Below, one piece after another: positions 27,737 to 33,700 of a stretch of DNA of 64,000 nt. The notes under the pieces were generated by a model. That model saw only the letters and a program-made list of their open reading frames with translations, was not told where the DNA came from and made no database searches. Each line of letters begins with the position of its first letter. The first letter of the stretch is position 1. The position numbers and the translations under genes were made by a program. The stretch comes from Pacificibacter marinus (GTDB lineage: Bacteria; Pseudomonadota; Alphaproteobacteria; Rhodobacterales; Rhodobacteraceae): NCBI RefSeq assembly GCF_018860665.1, contig NZ_JAHKPK010000018.1, positions 1-64,000 on the forward strand, given 5' to 3'.

Positions 27737-28612
27737 ATGGCAATCACTGCTGCAATGGTTAAAGAACTGCGCGAAGCAACAGCTGCAGGCATGATGGACG
27801 CGAAAAAAGCACTCGTTGAGTGTGATGGTGACATGGAGGCCGCTGTTGACTGGCTTCGCACCAAAGGCTTGGCAAAAGCCGCTAAAAAATCTGGCCGTAC
27901 AGCAGCTGAAGGCCTTGTGGCTGTTGCTGTGTCCGGTGGCAAAGGTGTTGCGGTTGAAGTGAACTCTGAAACTGACTTCGTTGGTAAAAACGCTGAATTC
28001 CAAGCCATGGTAGGGTCCATCGCAGGTGCGGCTTTGGCTGTGAATACAGTTGAAGAGCTTTCTGCGGCTGACATCGGTGGTAAATCCGTTGCTGAAACGA
28101 TCACTGATAAAGTTGCGACAATCGGCGAAAACATGGCTTTGCGCCGCATGGCTGCGCTCGAAGGTGACGTGGTTGTGTCCTACGTGCACAACGCGGCGAC
28201 TGACGGCATGGGCAAAATCGGTGTTCTTGTGGCACTTAAAGGTGGCGATGAAGCCTTCGGTAAACAGGTTGCGATGCACATCGCGGCTGTGAACCCTGCG
28301 TCCTTGTCCGAAGCTGATCTTGACGCGGCTGTTGTTGAAAAAGAAAAGCAAGTTCAGATCGATATTGCACGTGAATCTGGCAAGCCAGAAGCTGTAATCG
28401 AAAAAATGATCGTGGGCCGTATGAAGAAATTCATCGCGGAATCCACATTGCTTGGTCAAGCTTTCGTTGTGAACCCTGACCTGACTGTTGCACAAGCGGC
28501 AACTGAAGCAGGCGCAGAAATCACTGGCTTTGTACGTCTTGAAGTTGGCGAAGGCATTGAAAAAGTTGCTGAAGACTTTGCCGCAGAAGTTGCGAAAACA
28601 ATGAACAGCTAA
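27737..28612 (+). CDS. tsf: Translation elongation factor Ts
   Basis: A 291-residue EF-Ts that recycles EF-Tu-GDP to EF-Tu-GTP. The N-terminal UBA-like domain ([21 protein letters not shown]) and the core motif [16 protein letters not shown] carrying the TDFV loop are clear. GGAGA precedes the ATG. It follows rpsB by 81 bp and ends before a strong terminator. The 325-codon open frame on the opposite strand is a shadow. Confidence 0.97.
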
Positions 28613-28646
28613 GGCATTACGCTTTAACGTTTATGATTGCATAGGG

Positions 28647-28674
28647 AAGGGGGCGCAGATTTGCGTCCCCTTTT
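28647..28674 (+). terminator. Intrinsic terminator of rpsB-tsf
   Basis: AAGGGGGCGCA pairs with TGCGTCCCCTT (one G-U), tetraloop GATT, followed by TTTT. Lies 35 bp after the tsf stop. Confidence 0.88.
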
Positions 28675-28744
28675 CGTTATGAAAAGCGGGAACAGTGGCG
28701 ATGTTTACGTTACTAAGTCCTATCATCATCGATGGTCACAAAAT

Positions 28745-28893
28745 GAAAAACGCAGTCCCCCGAAAGGAACTGCGCTCAAATCAACCTGCTGCATAAACTG
28801 TCGGGATGAGGGTTGTATGCAGCTTCACGATCTTAAAGGATCACTTTGTCCAAATAAACAAGTGACCCAAATGTGCTGGCGAACCAGCAAGAC
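28745..28893 (-). ncRNA. Candidate small RNA with three hairpins and own promoter/terminator
   Basis: On the minus strand a promoter-like TTGGAC-N17-TAGCTT (28927 to 28899) is followed by: a hairpin TGCTGG-TTCG-CCAGCA (28889-28874) with the very stable UUCG loop; a perfect 8-bp stem GCTGCATA / TATGCAGC (28823-28788) with a 20-base loop rich in C (CCCTCATCCC); and a terminator CGCAGT / ACTGCG (28774-28751) followed by TTTTTCATTTTG. The predicted RNA is about 145-150 nt. No plausible ORF exists. The C-rich exposed loop could pair with ribosome-binding sites. It lies 120 bp beyond the 3' end of luxR. I cannot match it to a known RNA family. Confidence 0.6.
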
Positions 28894-28898
28894 TGGAT

Positions 28899-28927
28899 AA
28901 GCTAAATATAGGCGATCTCCAGTCCAA
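28899..28927 (-). promoter_or_regulatory. Candidate promoter of the small RNA
   Basis: Minus strand: TTGGAC (28927-28922), 17-bp spacer, TAGCTT (28904-28899). Same hexamers as the orphan promoter at 22806-22833. Confidence 0.45.
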
Positions 28928-29049
28928 AATACCTTAGAGGGTAAACCTCTTTGTTAAGGTGATTAATAATGCAACATTGACGCTAGGTAACGAAAGTGGG
29001 GAAAACCATACCTTGAGCTTAAAGAAAACCTAACGGTCGCGATAGAAAT

Positions 29050-29802
29050 CTAAAGCCTGTAGAACTGGTTTAACAGTGACGCTTTTAATATGGCCTGAGC
29101 TGTCGTCTCGACGTCCAAAGCATCACGCGCGAGCTTTAAGTGCTTTTCGACTGTGGCTGTCGTAAGACCCATAATCTGCGCCACGTCTGCAGACGTTTTC
29201 CCATCGCCGACCCATTCCAAAACTTCACGCTGGCGTGCTGTTAGCCTCCTTAAATCAAAGGGGAGCGAAATTATTTTTAGGTGAGAAACCTCACATAATA
29301 TTTTGATTTCCGGTCCATATTTCGTCCAGATGGCATCAGCTTGTTCTTGAGTGCCAACAAATGGTGACATCGATAACCCGATCGCGCCTTTGGACCGCGT
29401 CGTCGCGTTGCTAAAGCCAATCGTATATCCATTGACCACGCCAAACGAGCGATTGAATTCAACGGTTTCACGCGCTTTTTCATCCAATGTGTCATAAACC
29501 TCATCGATATAGGCCCATGAACAGACACCAGCGTTCTGCGCAGCCCAAGTCACTAAGGGGCCATGTTTGTAACGCCCGTCGTAGAAGTACCCTTTGACAT
29601 AATCTGGCCCAAGGTTGGTTAACACAAGATGATCGGTGGTGTCACCAAACCCGTTTTCGGTGTGAAATCGAGTGAAGCCATATAAGACGTTTTGAAATCC
29701 CAAGGATTGAAGTTTCAAAAGTAAGACTTCCCAAACACCTTCAATCGTTGTTGCGGTCAAGATTCCATTGAGTGTTATGGTCATATGTGCCTTTAAACTC
29801 AT
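29050..29802 (-). CDS. LuxR-type quorum-sensing regulator (no LuxI in window)
   Basis: A 250-residue regulator. The N-terminal autoinducer-binding domain shows YVKGYFYDGRYKHGPLVTWA and CSWAYIDE, matching conserved Tyr/Asp/Trp positions of acyl-homoserine-lactone receptors. The C-terminal HTH is LTARQREVLEWVGDGKTSADVAQ with GLTTATVEKHLKLARDAL. No acyl-homoserine-lactone synthase gene lies in the window, so it may be a LuxR 'solo' or pair with a distant synthase. ATG 29802 has AGAGG 6 bases upstream; ATG 29784 is an alternative. A candidate small RNA follows downstream on the same strand. Confidence 0.88.
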   Translation of the reverse strand: MSLKAHMTITLNGILTATTIEGVWEVLLLKLQSLGFQNVLYGFTRFHTENGFGDTTDHLVLTNLGPDYVKGYFYDGRYKHGPLVTWAAQNAGVCSWAYIDEVYDTLDEKARETVEFNRSFGVVNGYTIGFSNATTRSKGAIGLSMSPFVGTQEQADAIWTKYGPEIKILCEVSHLKIISLPFDLRRLTARQREVLEWVGDGKTSADVAQIMGLTTATVEKHLKLARDALDVETTAQAILKASLLNQFYRL

Positions 29803-30138: not shown

Positions 30139-30828
30139 TTAGCCGAGTGCGTAGCCTGCGCCGCGGACTGTTCGTACTGGGTCTTCGCCGCCATGTTGAC
30201 ACAGAGCTTTGCGCAGACGTCCGATATGGACATCGACTGTACGCGTATCGACATAGATATCACGCCCCCAAACCCGATCCAGCAACTGTTCACGCGACCA
30301 GACACGGCCTGGTTTTTCCATGAAGGTGGTCAACAGACGAAACTCGGTCGGACCAAGTTTCAAGGCACTGTCAGAACGCGTCACTTTGTGAGTTTCTGCA
30401 TCCAAGCGGATGTCATCAAACGACAACACCTGCCCCACCGCTGATGGACGCACGCGACGCAATTGCGTGCGCACGCGGGCCATCAATTCGATGACAGAAT
30501 AGGGTTTGACCACATAGTCATCCGCACCCGTTTCCAAGCCCCGCACGCGGTCGACGTCTTCGGACCGTGCGGACAACATGATGATCGGGATTTGGCGGGT
30601 CTCTGCGCGCGATTTCAACCGACGGCAGATTTCGATGCCAGACACACCGGGCAACATCCAATCGAGAACGATGATGTCCGGCGCCTCCTCATTTACAAAC
30701 ATCAAAGCATCATCGCCGTTTTCGGCTTTGGTGACCTGAAACCCTTCGGATTCAAAATTATAGCCCAAGACTTCACGTTGCGCTGGTTCATCTTCGACAA
30801 GCAAAACATGAGGACGATCGACAGACAT
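30139..30828 (-). CDS. phoB: Phosphate-response regulator PhoB
   Basis: A 229-residue OmpR-family regulator. The receiver domain has the phosphorylated Asp in IIVLDWMLPGVSG and Lys in VVKPYSVIEL; the C-terminal winged helix shows GPTEFRLLTTFMEKPGRVWSREQLLD and RTVDVHIGRLRKAL. PhoB is phosphorylated by PhoR under phosphate starvation and binds PHO boxes. Its ATG overlaps the phoU stop (TGATG). Last gene of the operon, opposite to many gamma-proteobacteria where phoBR form a separate unit. Confidence 0.95.
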   Translation of the reverse strand: MSVDRPHVLLVEDEPAQREVLGYNFESEGFQVTKAENGDDALMFVNEEAPDIIVLDWMLPGVSGIEICRRLKSRAETRQIPIIMLSARSEDVDRVRGLETGADDYVVKPYSVIELMARVRTQLRRVRPSAVGQVLSFDDIRLDAETHKVTRSDSALKLGPTEFRLLTTFMEKPGRVWSREQLLDRVWGRDIYVDTRTVDVHIGRLRKALCQHGGEDPVRTVRGAGYALG

Positions 30829-31550
30829 CAGAGCGTCTCCATATCCATATCAGTGTGAGAGGTCAGATCGCCCTTTGGACGGCTTTCCTCAGGCAATTCG
30901 CCCGTCACAAGATAGATCACTTGCTCGGCAATCGAGGTGGCATGATCGCCCATGCGTTCGATGTTTTTAGCGATGAAATGCAGGTGCATACAGGCTGAGA
31001 TATTGCGTGGGTCTTCCATCATATAGGTCAGGAATTCGCGAAACAAAGCGTTGTACATTTGGTCAACGTCAAGGTCACGTTGGCGCACTTGCTCGGCAAC
31101 TTCTGCGTCGCGCTGGATGTAGGCATCAAGCGCAAGTTTGAGCATTTCTTCAACTTCGCGCGCCATGCGGCGGATAGAGGCACCTGCCCCTGTGATCGGC
31201 TGCATATCGGCCAAAACACCTGTACGCTTAGCCAAGTTTTTCGCGTAATCACCGCAACGTTCCAAATTGCCTGCGATTTTCATCACAGTCAAAACAGTGC
31301 GCAAGTCGCCCGCCGCAGGGGATCGCAATGCGATAACGCGGGCCGCTTCTTCGTTGATTTTCTCTTCCAAAGCATCGATGGCTTTGTCAGAGGCGCGCAC
31401 TTTTGCGGCCAGCTCGACATCACGTTCTTCCAAGGCTTGCGCCGCAGAGGTGATGTTTGCTTCGACCATGCCGCCCATTTTCATGATCAGGGCTTGGATG
31501 GCTTCTAGGTCGCGATCAAAAACGGACGCGATGTGTTTTTCATTTGTCAT
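30828..31550 (-). CDS. phoU: Phosphate signalling complex accessory protein PhoU
   Basis: A 240-residue, all-helical protein with two PhoU repeats; the metal-binding E/D-x-x-x-D signatures appear in NLERCGDYAKNLAKR and NIERMGDHATSIAEQ. PhoU links the Pst transporter to PhoR and holds the kinase in its inhibitory state when phosphate is plentiful. It follows pstB by 12 bp and overlaps phoB by one base. Confidence 0.95.
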   Translation of the reverse strand: MTNEKHIASVFDRDLEAIQALIMKMGGMVEANITSAAQALEERDVELAAKVRASDKAIDALEEKINEEAARVIALRSPAAGDLRTVLTVMKIAGNLERCGDYAKNLAKRTGVLADMQPITGAGASIRRMAREVEEMLKLALDAYIQRDAEVAEQVRQRDLDVDQMYNALFREFLTYMMEDPRNISACMHLHFIAKNIERMGDHATSIAEQVIYLVTGELPEESRPKGDLTSHTDMDMETL

Positions 31551-31562
31551 AGAAGTTACTCC

Positions 31563-32360
31563 TTAACCGATCCGGCCAGTGATGTAGGACTCTGTACGCG
31601 GGTCCTGGGGATTGGTAAAAATTTGGCCTGTTTCGCCGTATTCAACAAGGTTTCCGAGGTGGAAGAAGGCTGTTTTTTGGCTCACACGCGCAGCTTGTTG
31701 CATAGAGTGCGTGACGATCACCACAGAGAAGTTTTCGCGCAACTCGTCGATCAGCTCTTCGACCTGAGCGGTGGCAATTGGGTCGAGCGCAGAACATGGC
31801 TCATCCATCAACAGAACCTCTGGTTCCGTAGCCACAGCGCGGGCAATACACAAACGCTGTTGCTGACCACCTGAAAGGCCTGTGCCCGGTGCGTGCAGAC
31901 GATCTTTCACCTCGTTCCAAATCGCACCACGACGTAGGGATTTTTCAACGATTTCGTCAAGATCCGCCTTGGTGCGCGCCAATCCGTGAATACGTGGGCC
32001 ATAAGCCACGTTGTCGTAGATTGATTTCGGGAACGGGTTCGGTTTTTGGAACACCATGCCAACTTTGGCACGCAATTGAACAGGATCAACACGCTTGTCG
32101 TAGATGTCTTCACCTTCGATTTGGATAGACCCTTCAACGCGACAAATATCGATCGTGTCATTCATCCGGTTCAGGCAACGCAAGAATGTAGATTTGCCGC
32201 AACCAGACGGACCAATAAAGGCGGTCACAGTCTTATCTTTGATCTCGACATTCACGTCTTTGATCGCATGGGTGTCGCCGTAGTAGACTTGCACACCTTT
32301 GGCGGAAATTTTAATGTCGTTCATGTCAACGTCTCTTTTCACAATTCGCATATCGTTCAT
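31563..32360 (-). CDS. pstB: Phosphate ABC transporter ATP-binding protein
   Basis: A 265-residue ABC ATPase: Walker [20 protein letters not shown] (the PstB-specific continuation), Q-loop [18 protein letters not shown], signature [14 protein letters not shown] and Walker [13 protein letters not shown]. It powers high-affinity phosphate import through PstCA and takes part in signalling with PhoU. ATG 32360 has AAAGGG; a second in-frame ATG 36 bases on is possible. Confidence 0.96.
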
Positions 32361-32374
32361 TTTGTTACCCTTTC

Positions 32375-33700
32375 CTACCAGCGACGCTCAAAGCGGCGGC
32401 GTAGAATAATTGCGATGATGTTCATTGTCAGAAGGAAAGCCAGCAAGACGATGATACCGCCCCATGCTTTTTCATAAAAACCAGCATCAGCGCGTGCGGC
32501 CCAAGTGTAGATCTGTGCAGGCATTGCAGAGTTCGGGTCAAGGAAGCCACTAACGACTCCATCAGGGAATTCGCGAGCCACAAAGCCGACCATCCCGATG
32601 AGCAATAGTGGTGCAGATTCACCCAAGGCCTGCGCCAAGCCAATGATTGTCCCCGTCAGAATGCCAGGCATAGCGAGTGGCAACACATGGTGGAACACGG
32701 ATTGCATCTTAGACGCGCCAATCCCCAAAGCCGCATCACGAATGGATGGCGGTACAGCTTTTAGCGATGCGCGTGTCGAGATGATAATCGTTGGCAGTGT
32801 CATCAGGGTCAAAACCAAACCACCAACAAGGGGGGCTGATTGTGGCATGTGCATAAACTGAATGAATACGGACAGGCCCAGAATACCAAACACGATGGAC
32901 GGCACAGCAGCGAGGTTTGAGATGTTCACTTCCACAATATCTGTGAACTTGTTTTGCGGTGCGAACTCTTCGAGGTAGATGGACGCGGCAACACCGATCG
33001 GCAAACTGAGAAGCAAAACAACCAGCATCATAAAGAATGACCCAATAGCCGCAGCACCAATGCCAGCGCCACCGGGGTTATCAACACCCGCATCTGTGCC
33101 CTTGATAAAGGCCCAGTTGAAACGGCTCGTCAAAATATCTGCTTCAGTCAATGCATCAATGATATCAAGGTCGGTTTTGACCAAGAAACGGCTGTCCACC
33201 AGGCTTTCACGATCTACACGGCCTTTGAAATACCCTTCAACGCGCGACGATGTTTGCAATTGGAATGTAACGGGGCGTCCAATATCGTCAAGGTTCTCAC
33301 GGTAATGCCCGCGAATGTCGCCGCCGACCTTGCCCAAGATGCGTTCAATCGCATCAGAGTCGTAAGCCACCTCTACACCGCGTTCATCCAAAGCGTCACT
33401 GAAGTTTTGGATGAAAATATCAGTATATGCAGCTGTTTTAAGCATTTTGCTTTCAGCGGCATCATAATCTTCTTGCGACAAGGTCACTTCGAGCTCGGCC
33501 ACATATTGTGTGAAGGCCGGCAGGCCTGAACGCAGGATAGAAAACGCAAGAGAGGCAAGAAAAAGAACACCGATTGAGATTGCAATAATACCGTAGGCGC
33601 GAAACCGTGCCTCTGAGGCGTTTCTTTTTTTGGTGCGCGGATCCGCGACCATAAGTGAGCCGTGTGAAATACGGCCGTTTGAGGCTGATTGATCAGACAT
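32375..33700 (-). CDS. pstA: Phosphate ABC transporter permease PstA
   Basis: A 441-residue permease, longer than the E. coli protein (about 296) because of an extended N-terminus: a cytoplasmic part, a first helix near 35-55, and a periplasmic domain of roughly 140 residues (residues 60-200) before the five-helix permease core. The EAA loop is visible at [23 protein letters not shown]. The enlarged periplasmic insert appears to be common in alphaproteobacterial PstA. The start overlaps the pstC stop by one base (TAATG). Confidence 0.93.

Follow-up and report, generated by a model that had tools for sequence, protein, structure and literature searches.

The window, by which we mean the whole 64-kb stretch of DNA that was analyzed, almost certainly carries a free-standing gene for a small regulatory RNA on its minus strand, between tsf and luxR, and the adjacent LuxR very probably activates this gene, judging from a promoter dyad, its distribution and the conserved gene order. 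The RNA is widespread among relatives, while the window's own copy is unusually divergent. An earlier reading of the window from its letters alone (the sequence-only reading) had recognized the RNA and missed both its spread and divergence and its link to luxR (dyad, co-occurrence, synteny).

The RNA locus in the window

The RNA is on the same strand as luxR and starts 90 nt past its stop codon, tsf converges on the RNA, and the stretch between RNA and tsf contains the terminator and no further same-strand gene (Table 1). By these features the locus looks like that of a bacterial small regulatory RNA, with its own promoter, its own terminator and no coding region. The stretch 28744-28900 has a predicted folding energy of -59.4 kcal/mol compared with -38.9 (sd 3.8) in 200 dinucleotide shuffles (z -5.43), and the full extent, 28745-28960, reaches -81.1 (z -5.94 against dinucleotide shuffles). 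With ATG, GTG and TTG starts allowed, open frames on the RNA strand across 28745-28960 reach at most 28 codons, and the RNA does not look coding, in line with the sequence-only reading. At the gathering score, Rfam finds two tRNAs in the whole window and nothing at the RNA locus, and Rfam 15 (4227 families, including 6S and SRP RNA) gives no match above the gathering cut-off at ten relatives' loci, in agreement with the earlier failure to place the RNA in a known family. Upstream of luxR on the same strand (30139-33700) there is a pho/pst-type cluster that includes a response regulator (by Pfam) and frames resembling phoU, pstB and pstA (recognized by eye).

Table 1. Features of the luxR-RNA-tsf locus, with positions in the window
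Feature	Position	Strand	Remarks
small RNA gene	28745..28960	-	~216 nt, from inferred start near 28960 to terminator; start placed by alignment with relatives
stem-loop P1	28931..28960	-	outer stem ACCTT/AAGGT, inner stem AGAGG/CCTCT; from genus-model match and fold
stem-loop P2	28890..28925	-	GGACTGGA / TCCAGTCT; GATCGCC..TATTTAGCTTA kept in the genus
P3, short UUCG-capped hairpin	28874..28889	-	from fold; family counterpart CCGGGAAACCGG
P4, long stem-loop	28839..28868	-	from fold; family counterpart has 15 covarying pairs
stem-loop P5 with 20-nt C-rich loop (28815-28796)	28779..28834	-	proposed seed CTCATCCC at 28810-28803
intrinsic terminator hairpin	28748..28777	-	followed by U tract
-10 element CATTAT	28966..28971	-	family consensus CAnnnT; window's one base closer to start
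lux-box-like dyad GGTATGGTTTTCCCCACT	28995..29012	-	centre ~43 nt before start; proposed LuxR site; conserved in relatives' promoters
luxR	29050..29802	-	autoinducer-binding domain PF03472 (7.1e-19) and GerE HTH PF00196 (5.7e-10); proposed activator
tsf (elongation factor Ts)	27737..28612	+	convergent neighbor; landmark of the conserved locus

Much of the architecture described in the sequence-only reading is borne out. The UUCG-capped hairpin and the terminator hairpin with its U tract are in place, and a perfect 8-bp stem (28823-28816 / 28795-28788) encloses the 20-nt loop containing CCCTCATCCC (28812-28803). Its promoter, TTGGAC-N17-TAGCTT, fares differently: the letters are present (28927-28922 and 28904-28899), yet they lie inside the transcript, in stem P2, share 6 of 12 letters with TTGACA/TATAAT when compared by eye, and are not supported by a promoter scan of 28300-29400, which returned no minus-strand site and a single site on the other strand, with 1.2 expected. 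Comparison with relatives places the start 33 nt upstream of that promoter. Because the promoter found by comparison spans 29012-28966 and the hexamers fall within P2, the extent given earlier omits P1; a free-standing, terminated and apparently non-coding RNA between tsf and luxR stands, and its proposed 5' end does not.

A family of structured RNAs with a C-rich loop

A search by DNA similarity matched 2 of 60 other genomes, both of the window's genus (copies 94% and 69% identical), and among 19 genus relatives it gave no further copy at a meaningful E-value. Since DNA similarity alone finds only same-genus copies, the family stayed hidden until luxR was used as an anchor. Among 295 sampled Rhodobacteraceae genomes (one per genus, but two for the genus of the window), 245 contain a match to the LuxR protein at E <= 0.001 and 212 at E <= 1e-30; viral contigs yielded no luxR relatives. 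tsf is convergent behind luxR in 26 of 30 fetched luxR loci, the window's included, and the gaps share a series of elements. A 5' motif derived from these luxR-tsf gaps was scanned over named genomes and found in at least 120 stretches. Among the 80 listed, all but two bear names of Rhodobacteraceae, Paracoccaceae or Rhodobacterales, the exceptions being an 'Alphaproteobacteria bacterium' and a record labelled Nocardioides; luxR is upstream on the same strand in 75 of these 80 loci and tsf convergent downstream in 74, with 3 of the 5 luxR misses and 4 of the 6 tsf misses near the locus end. The record labelled Nocardioides marinus, an actinobacterium, holds luxR, the RNA and a Ts gene whose protein is 83% identical to that of the window, and is probably mislabelled or contaminated.

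For structural comparison, we used a covariance model of P1-P4 (R1; 13 sequences, 130 positions, 40 pairs) seeded from a clean alignment; a plain MAFFT alignment of 31 sequences, given to RNAalifold, had yielded 15 pairs only and was replaced by this approach. R1 matches 183 of the 295 Rhodobacteraceae genomes (E <= 0.001), in a run with stricter filters that may miss some copies, and two of those genomes have a second match, one of them a mere 29-base fragment. On 289 genomes drawn class-wide it has two matches, both within the Rhodobacteraceae, and the RNA family thus far appears in one bacterial family, the Rhodobacteraceae in the broad sense. For the 98 matches (94 of them distinct) in 100 loci, 91.0% of the cells pair, compared with 71.0% when shuffled and at most 47.1% when slid, 34 of the 40 pairs are changed on both sides (26.2 shuffled), the covariation score is 0.472 (0.153 shuffled), and none of 500 shuffles reaches any observed measure, although the alignment was fitted to R1, which leans these figures towards the model, and kinship among the sequences inflates such tests. 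These two-sided changes are the compensatory substitutions at homologous loci downstream of tsf that the sequence-only reading had proposed as its check, and inspection by eye finds them in the two relatives closest to the window as well. Conservation is highest in the P1 hairpin, with GTTCCGTGAGTGG kept in 21 of 26 luxR-selected loci. A terminator finder applied to 98 sampled loci reported no clean terminator, or one outside 155-206 nt, in 50. At the level of sequence, comparison establishes the locus, the promoter architecture, covarying hairpins, the C-rich loop, a terminator in many members and a non-coding character.

R1 does not find the window's copy, and its best score in that genus (E 0.01) is no convincing match. 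Seventeen further loci of the genus have luxR with tsf convergent behind it, and most of their gaps contain the dyad, a P1 of approximately GTTCCNGCTTTC..GGCTTGGCC..GGGAC, and GGGATCGCC..ATTCGGCTTACC. A genus model (R2) was built from 13 sequences, with the window, G009, G010, L217 and L227 held out. Its sole match in the 64 kb is the window's RNA (28960-28835, E 7e-4), and it matches the other four held-out loci at their RNA (E 2.6e-19 for L217, 6e-4 for L227). In the family member L043, R2 hits the same place as R1 (E 1e-4), and in five further family loci it scores weakly (E 0.02 to 0.4) at R1's place; at whole-genome scale it lists 15 of 20 genus genomes, the window's own not among them. 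On these comparisons, the window's RNA is a divergent member of the family. The outer stem of its P1 differs from the family's GTTCC/GGAAC at all five pairs, on both sides. Inspection by eye shows CTCATCCCGAC around the C-rich loop to be identical in the window, G009 and G010, and the 8-bp stem of G009 to pair still, through two double changes. The unpaired P1 stretch GTGAGTGG, kept in 21 of 26 luxR-selected loci, is replaced by ~GGCTTTC in the window's genus; the window (28936-28956) has lost this unpaired stretch while the stem is kept. One genus genome (G017; loci L227, L229) has a luxR split over two overlapping frames (query 10-184 and 173-248), either a decaying gene or an assembly error, while a divergent RNA and a dyad-like site remain.

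The exposed C-rich loop to which the sequence-only reading drew attention is conserved: of 105 nonredundant RNAs, 78 carry CATCCC near position 148 (mononucleotide shuffles: mean 3.8, maximum 10), with a mean unpaired probability of 0.76 and stems of free sequence beneath it. A conserved unpaired motif on stems of free sequence is the pattern of a pairing seed, and it is fairly likely that the RNA acts by base pairing through this loop. CAUCCC would then pair with G-rich translation-start regions of mRNAs made elsewhere and change their translation. The motif is missing from 27 of the 105 RNAs, and several genus relatives are without such a loop. In six genomes, the exact 11-nt complement of the family loop has 15 sites, 6 of which are the RNA genes themselves; the other 9 lie mostly within reading frames (reversed pattern: 2), and no gene is seen twice. 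In the 80 listed motif loci the loop complement has 84 matches (18.6 expected), of which 47 are the RNA gene's own other strand and the rest are scattered.

The conservation of P1, together with the lack of recurrent pairing targets in those six genomes, would also suit a real, LuxR-activated RNA that titrates a protein through its 5' hairpin or loops, in the manner of CsrB-type RNAs or 6S RNA. We regard this as unlikely: outside P1, the loop with the highest conservation is C-rich, unpaired and borne on free-sequence stems, as pairing seeds are, neither 6S nor any other Rfam family gives a match at the window's locus or at ten relatives' loci, and repeats of a protein-site motif were not noticed in an unsystematic look.

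The promoter dyad and its association with luxR

In 111 nonredundant promoters, GGTAaGGAatnCcnnACT at -52..-35 forms an imperfect palindrome centred between -44 and -43, and CAnnnT stands at -12..-7 ahead of the start (A in 110 of 111, T in 107 of 111); P1 is invariant in this set by construction, most of the loci having been chosen by that motif. The classical position of the lux box in LuxR-activated promoters is near -42.5. The RNA promoters have the layout of such lux-box promoters, with a palindrome of ~18-20 bp near -42.5, a -10 element and no proper -35. Given the dyad and CATTAT in the window, transcription is expected to start near 28960. LuxR would bind the dyad ~43 nt before the start and activate transcription as at a classical lux-box promoter; the sequence comparisons strongly suggest both the binding and the activation.

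The RNA promoter would also be the main local target of LuxR. The dyad is the top-scoring site in the window (17.6; next 13.3), and a degenerate dyad pattern has two matches in the window's own genome, including the dyad itself (reversed pattern: 1 and 4). Elsewhere in the 600 kb of 79 motif loci, a score of at least 15 is reached in five further rows, four of which (three places) are 101-114 nt before the same RNA start; no site scoring 15 stands in front of luxR itself in any of these loci. The three places, in L069, L130 and L074, are second strong dyads upstream of the first, and some promoters may bind two LuxR dimers.

The distribution of the dyad largely follows that of luxR. Across the 295 genomes, strong luxR (E 1e-30, a cut-off picked after the list was seen) and the RNA occur together in 178, luxR only in 34, the RNA only in 5 and neither in 78. 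When shifts of up to 8 bases are allowed, the dyad is found in 75 of the 79 motif loci; two of the four without it have no luxR in view (L083, L138) and two have luxR (L089, L112). Among 57 loci that have luxR, 55 also have the dyad, and none of 7 loci that lack luxR does (agreement 62 of 64), a count made with a matrix trained on such luxR loci and not left one out. At the fixed place, 0 of 6 luxR-less loci reach the score attained by 110 of 128 other loci, a leave-one-out count in which the 128 are all loci not classed as luxR-less, some having luxR past the locus end (L104, L124). For L083 and L138, the absence of luxR was judged from the locus alone. L138 shares its promoter with L255, and their Ts proteins are identical; both are among the 7 luxR-less loci, L255 alone among the 6. 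Where luxR is on another contig (G248, G099, G156; loci L258, L260, L268), the dyad is kept in 3 of 3. The five RNA-only genomes and the luxR-less locus L083 keep the RNA and tsf together in one locus but have lost the dyad; retention of the RNA in these five genomes indicates that it can run without luxR. On a tree of Ts proteins, luxR presence changes five times and there are two independent pairs on starred branches (sign test p 0.5), and with so few pairs the coupling of luxR and dyad is consistent, not statistically proved.

Promoters without the dyad (L083, L138, L255 and, in part, L089 and L112) have in common an element near CCTTCCCCTACG, ~26-37 nt ahead of the start; dyad promoters carry ACTTTC..TACG at that place. 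The element is perhaps a -35 element or another regulator's site. One genome (G283; loci L263 and L281, contig C31) has a second RNA copy and a luxR paralogue (39% identity to the window's) arranged tail to tail, away from tsf and with their own dyad, AGTATGGAAACCCATACT; the luxR-RNA unit seems to have been duplicated as a pair.

Alternatively, the dyad could belong to promoters in general or be bound by a regulator other than LuxR, with luxR a mere neighbor. The two loci with luxR and no dyad, the element near CCTTCCCCTACG shared by dyad-less promoters and the small number of independent events on the Ts tree are consistent with such an arrangement, but the agreement of dyad and luxR in 62 of 64 loci, also with luxR on another contig, the luxR paralogue near the second, dyad-bearing RNA copy in G283, and a palindrome at the classical lux-box place argue against it, and we consider it even less probable than protein titration. 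It is very improbable that the RNA is not a separate gene at all, being instead a luxR 3'-UTR product, a gene's leader or an antisense regulator of tsf. Its place close behind luxR on the same strand, with tsf converging, would permit this, but the RNA has conserved promoter elements of its own, a terminator before tsf and no same-strand gene following; it also stays where luxR is elsewhere or absent, and its start is ~1.1-1.8 kb from tsf in some genomes (e.g., L063, L067, L085, L130). Least probable of all, and rejected as a candidate, is a small protein encoded by the conserved stretch: although 44 of 78 RNAs have a GTG at +6 that opens a frame of at least 30 codons, and the longest ORF (62.5 codons) exceeds that of mononucleotide shuffles (43), the P1 loop in 28 of the 78 has a length that breaks frame with the commonest one, stops per frame (2.43, 1.51, 1.20) are near those of a resampled control (~1.7), the 12 peptides compared diverge past their first residues, and the window is without that GTG.

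The LuxR pocket and known systems

Residues of the AHL pocket include W57, Y61, D70, P71, W85 and G113, according to PMC11655674. We assigned these positions by spacing in 119 LuxRs of the loci studied, leaving G113 unassigned. The position of D70, the AHL-binding aspartate, is A or G in 115, that of W57 is Y in 114, and that of Y61 is F in 90 and Y in 26, while P71 is kept in 116 and W85 in 118. The LuxRs, with D70 and two more pocket residues changed, do not have the pocket of an AHL-responsive receptor, and the altered D70, W57 and Y61 positions make an ordinary AHL unlikely as the ligand. The activity of LuxR would be set by a signal that is probably no ordinary AHL, or it may be set without ligand; a ligand-free mode is possible. 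The window's own genome has three luxI homologues over the cut-off, all on other contigs.

No description of the RNA family was found in Rfam 15 or in searches of the open-licence literature. The family transcript may nonetheless have been seen earlier and not recognized. In Ruegeria pomeroyi DSS-3, riboswitch82 (188 nt) is listed with SPO1974 (PMC4809877), the only orphan LuxR listed for that strain (PMC3824088 Table A2), and trans56 (146 nt) lies between SPO1929 and SPO2024 if the identifiers follow genome order, as do the surrounding cis entries (PMC4809877). Either of these may be such a sighting; the same paper counts a cobalamin riboswitch homologue among its known RNAs, and riboswitch82 may be that homologue (PMC4809877).

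Orphan LuxR genes are common in marine Rhodobacteraceae, and their targets and ligands are for the most part not known (PMC3824088). For one widespread LuxR, the present analysis gives a definite output that is open to test: one RNA promoter with a clearly marked site, suited to a reporter fusion for ligand screening. The genomes that keep the RNA and have lost luxR provide a natural control, and the joint retention of the pair in many relatives allows both the signal and the target genes to be sought. A structured RNA family missing from Rfam 15 and present in 183 of 295 sampled genomes is added.

Among small RNAs of the Alphaproteobacteria, GsrN of Caulobacter has a C-rich loop that is exposed and serves as the pairing element. 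The likeness to the RNA described here is one of description, the exposed C-rich loop, and we know of no relation between the two in sequence or locus.

GtaR and CerM of Cereibacter sphaeroides are LuxR-type regulators with palindromic or degenerate sites, according to PMC11655674, and so resemble the present LuxR in protein class, bacterial family and the nature of the site. The GtaR site, RACMTGTCYWWWWRGACAKGTY, and the CerM motif, TNT(N5)AAGACA(N2)T, differ from GGTAAGGAATCCCTTACT here, and in the same source their AHL pockets are conserved except for W57F in CerM, whereas D70 and two more positions are changed here. An RNA target of GtaR or CerM is not mentioned in the text of PMC11655674, from which the words 'sRNA' and 'noncoding' are absent.

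The closest counterpart in way of working is the VqmA-VqmR system of Vibrio cholerae, in which a quorum-sensing transcription factor whose ligand is DPO, not an AHL, switches on a post-transcriptional small RNA (PMC13251380). We compare the two in way of working, in that a regulator would switch on a small RNA here as well, and claim no common membership; the bacteria are different, and the RNA described here shares a strand with luxR and lies behind it. The sensor domain of VqmA is a PAS domain, whereas the LuxR here has an autoinducer-binding domain. Weighing all of the comparisons, we think it likely that this LuxR, its AHL pocket altered, switches on a small RNA that works by base pairing, as VqmA does with VqmR. 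A broader proposal, which we see as evenly balanced between right and wrong, is that the two form a family-wide two-part unit in which the altered-pocket LuxR would work almost only through one adjacent RNA, an alphaproteobacterial counterpart of VqmA-VqmR that senses a non-AHL signal, and that the otherwise invariant 5' loop has been swapped wholesale on preserved stems in the genus of the window, as though its partner were now a different one.
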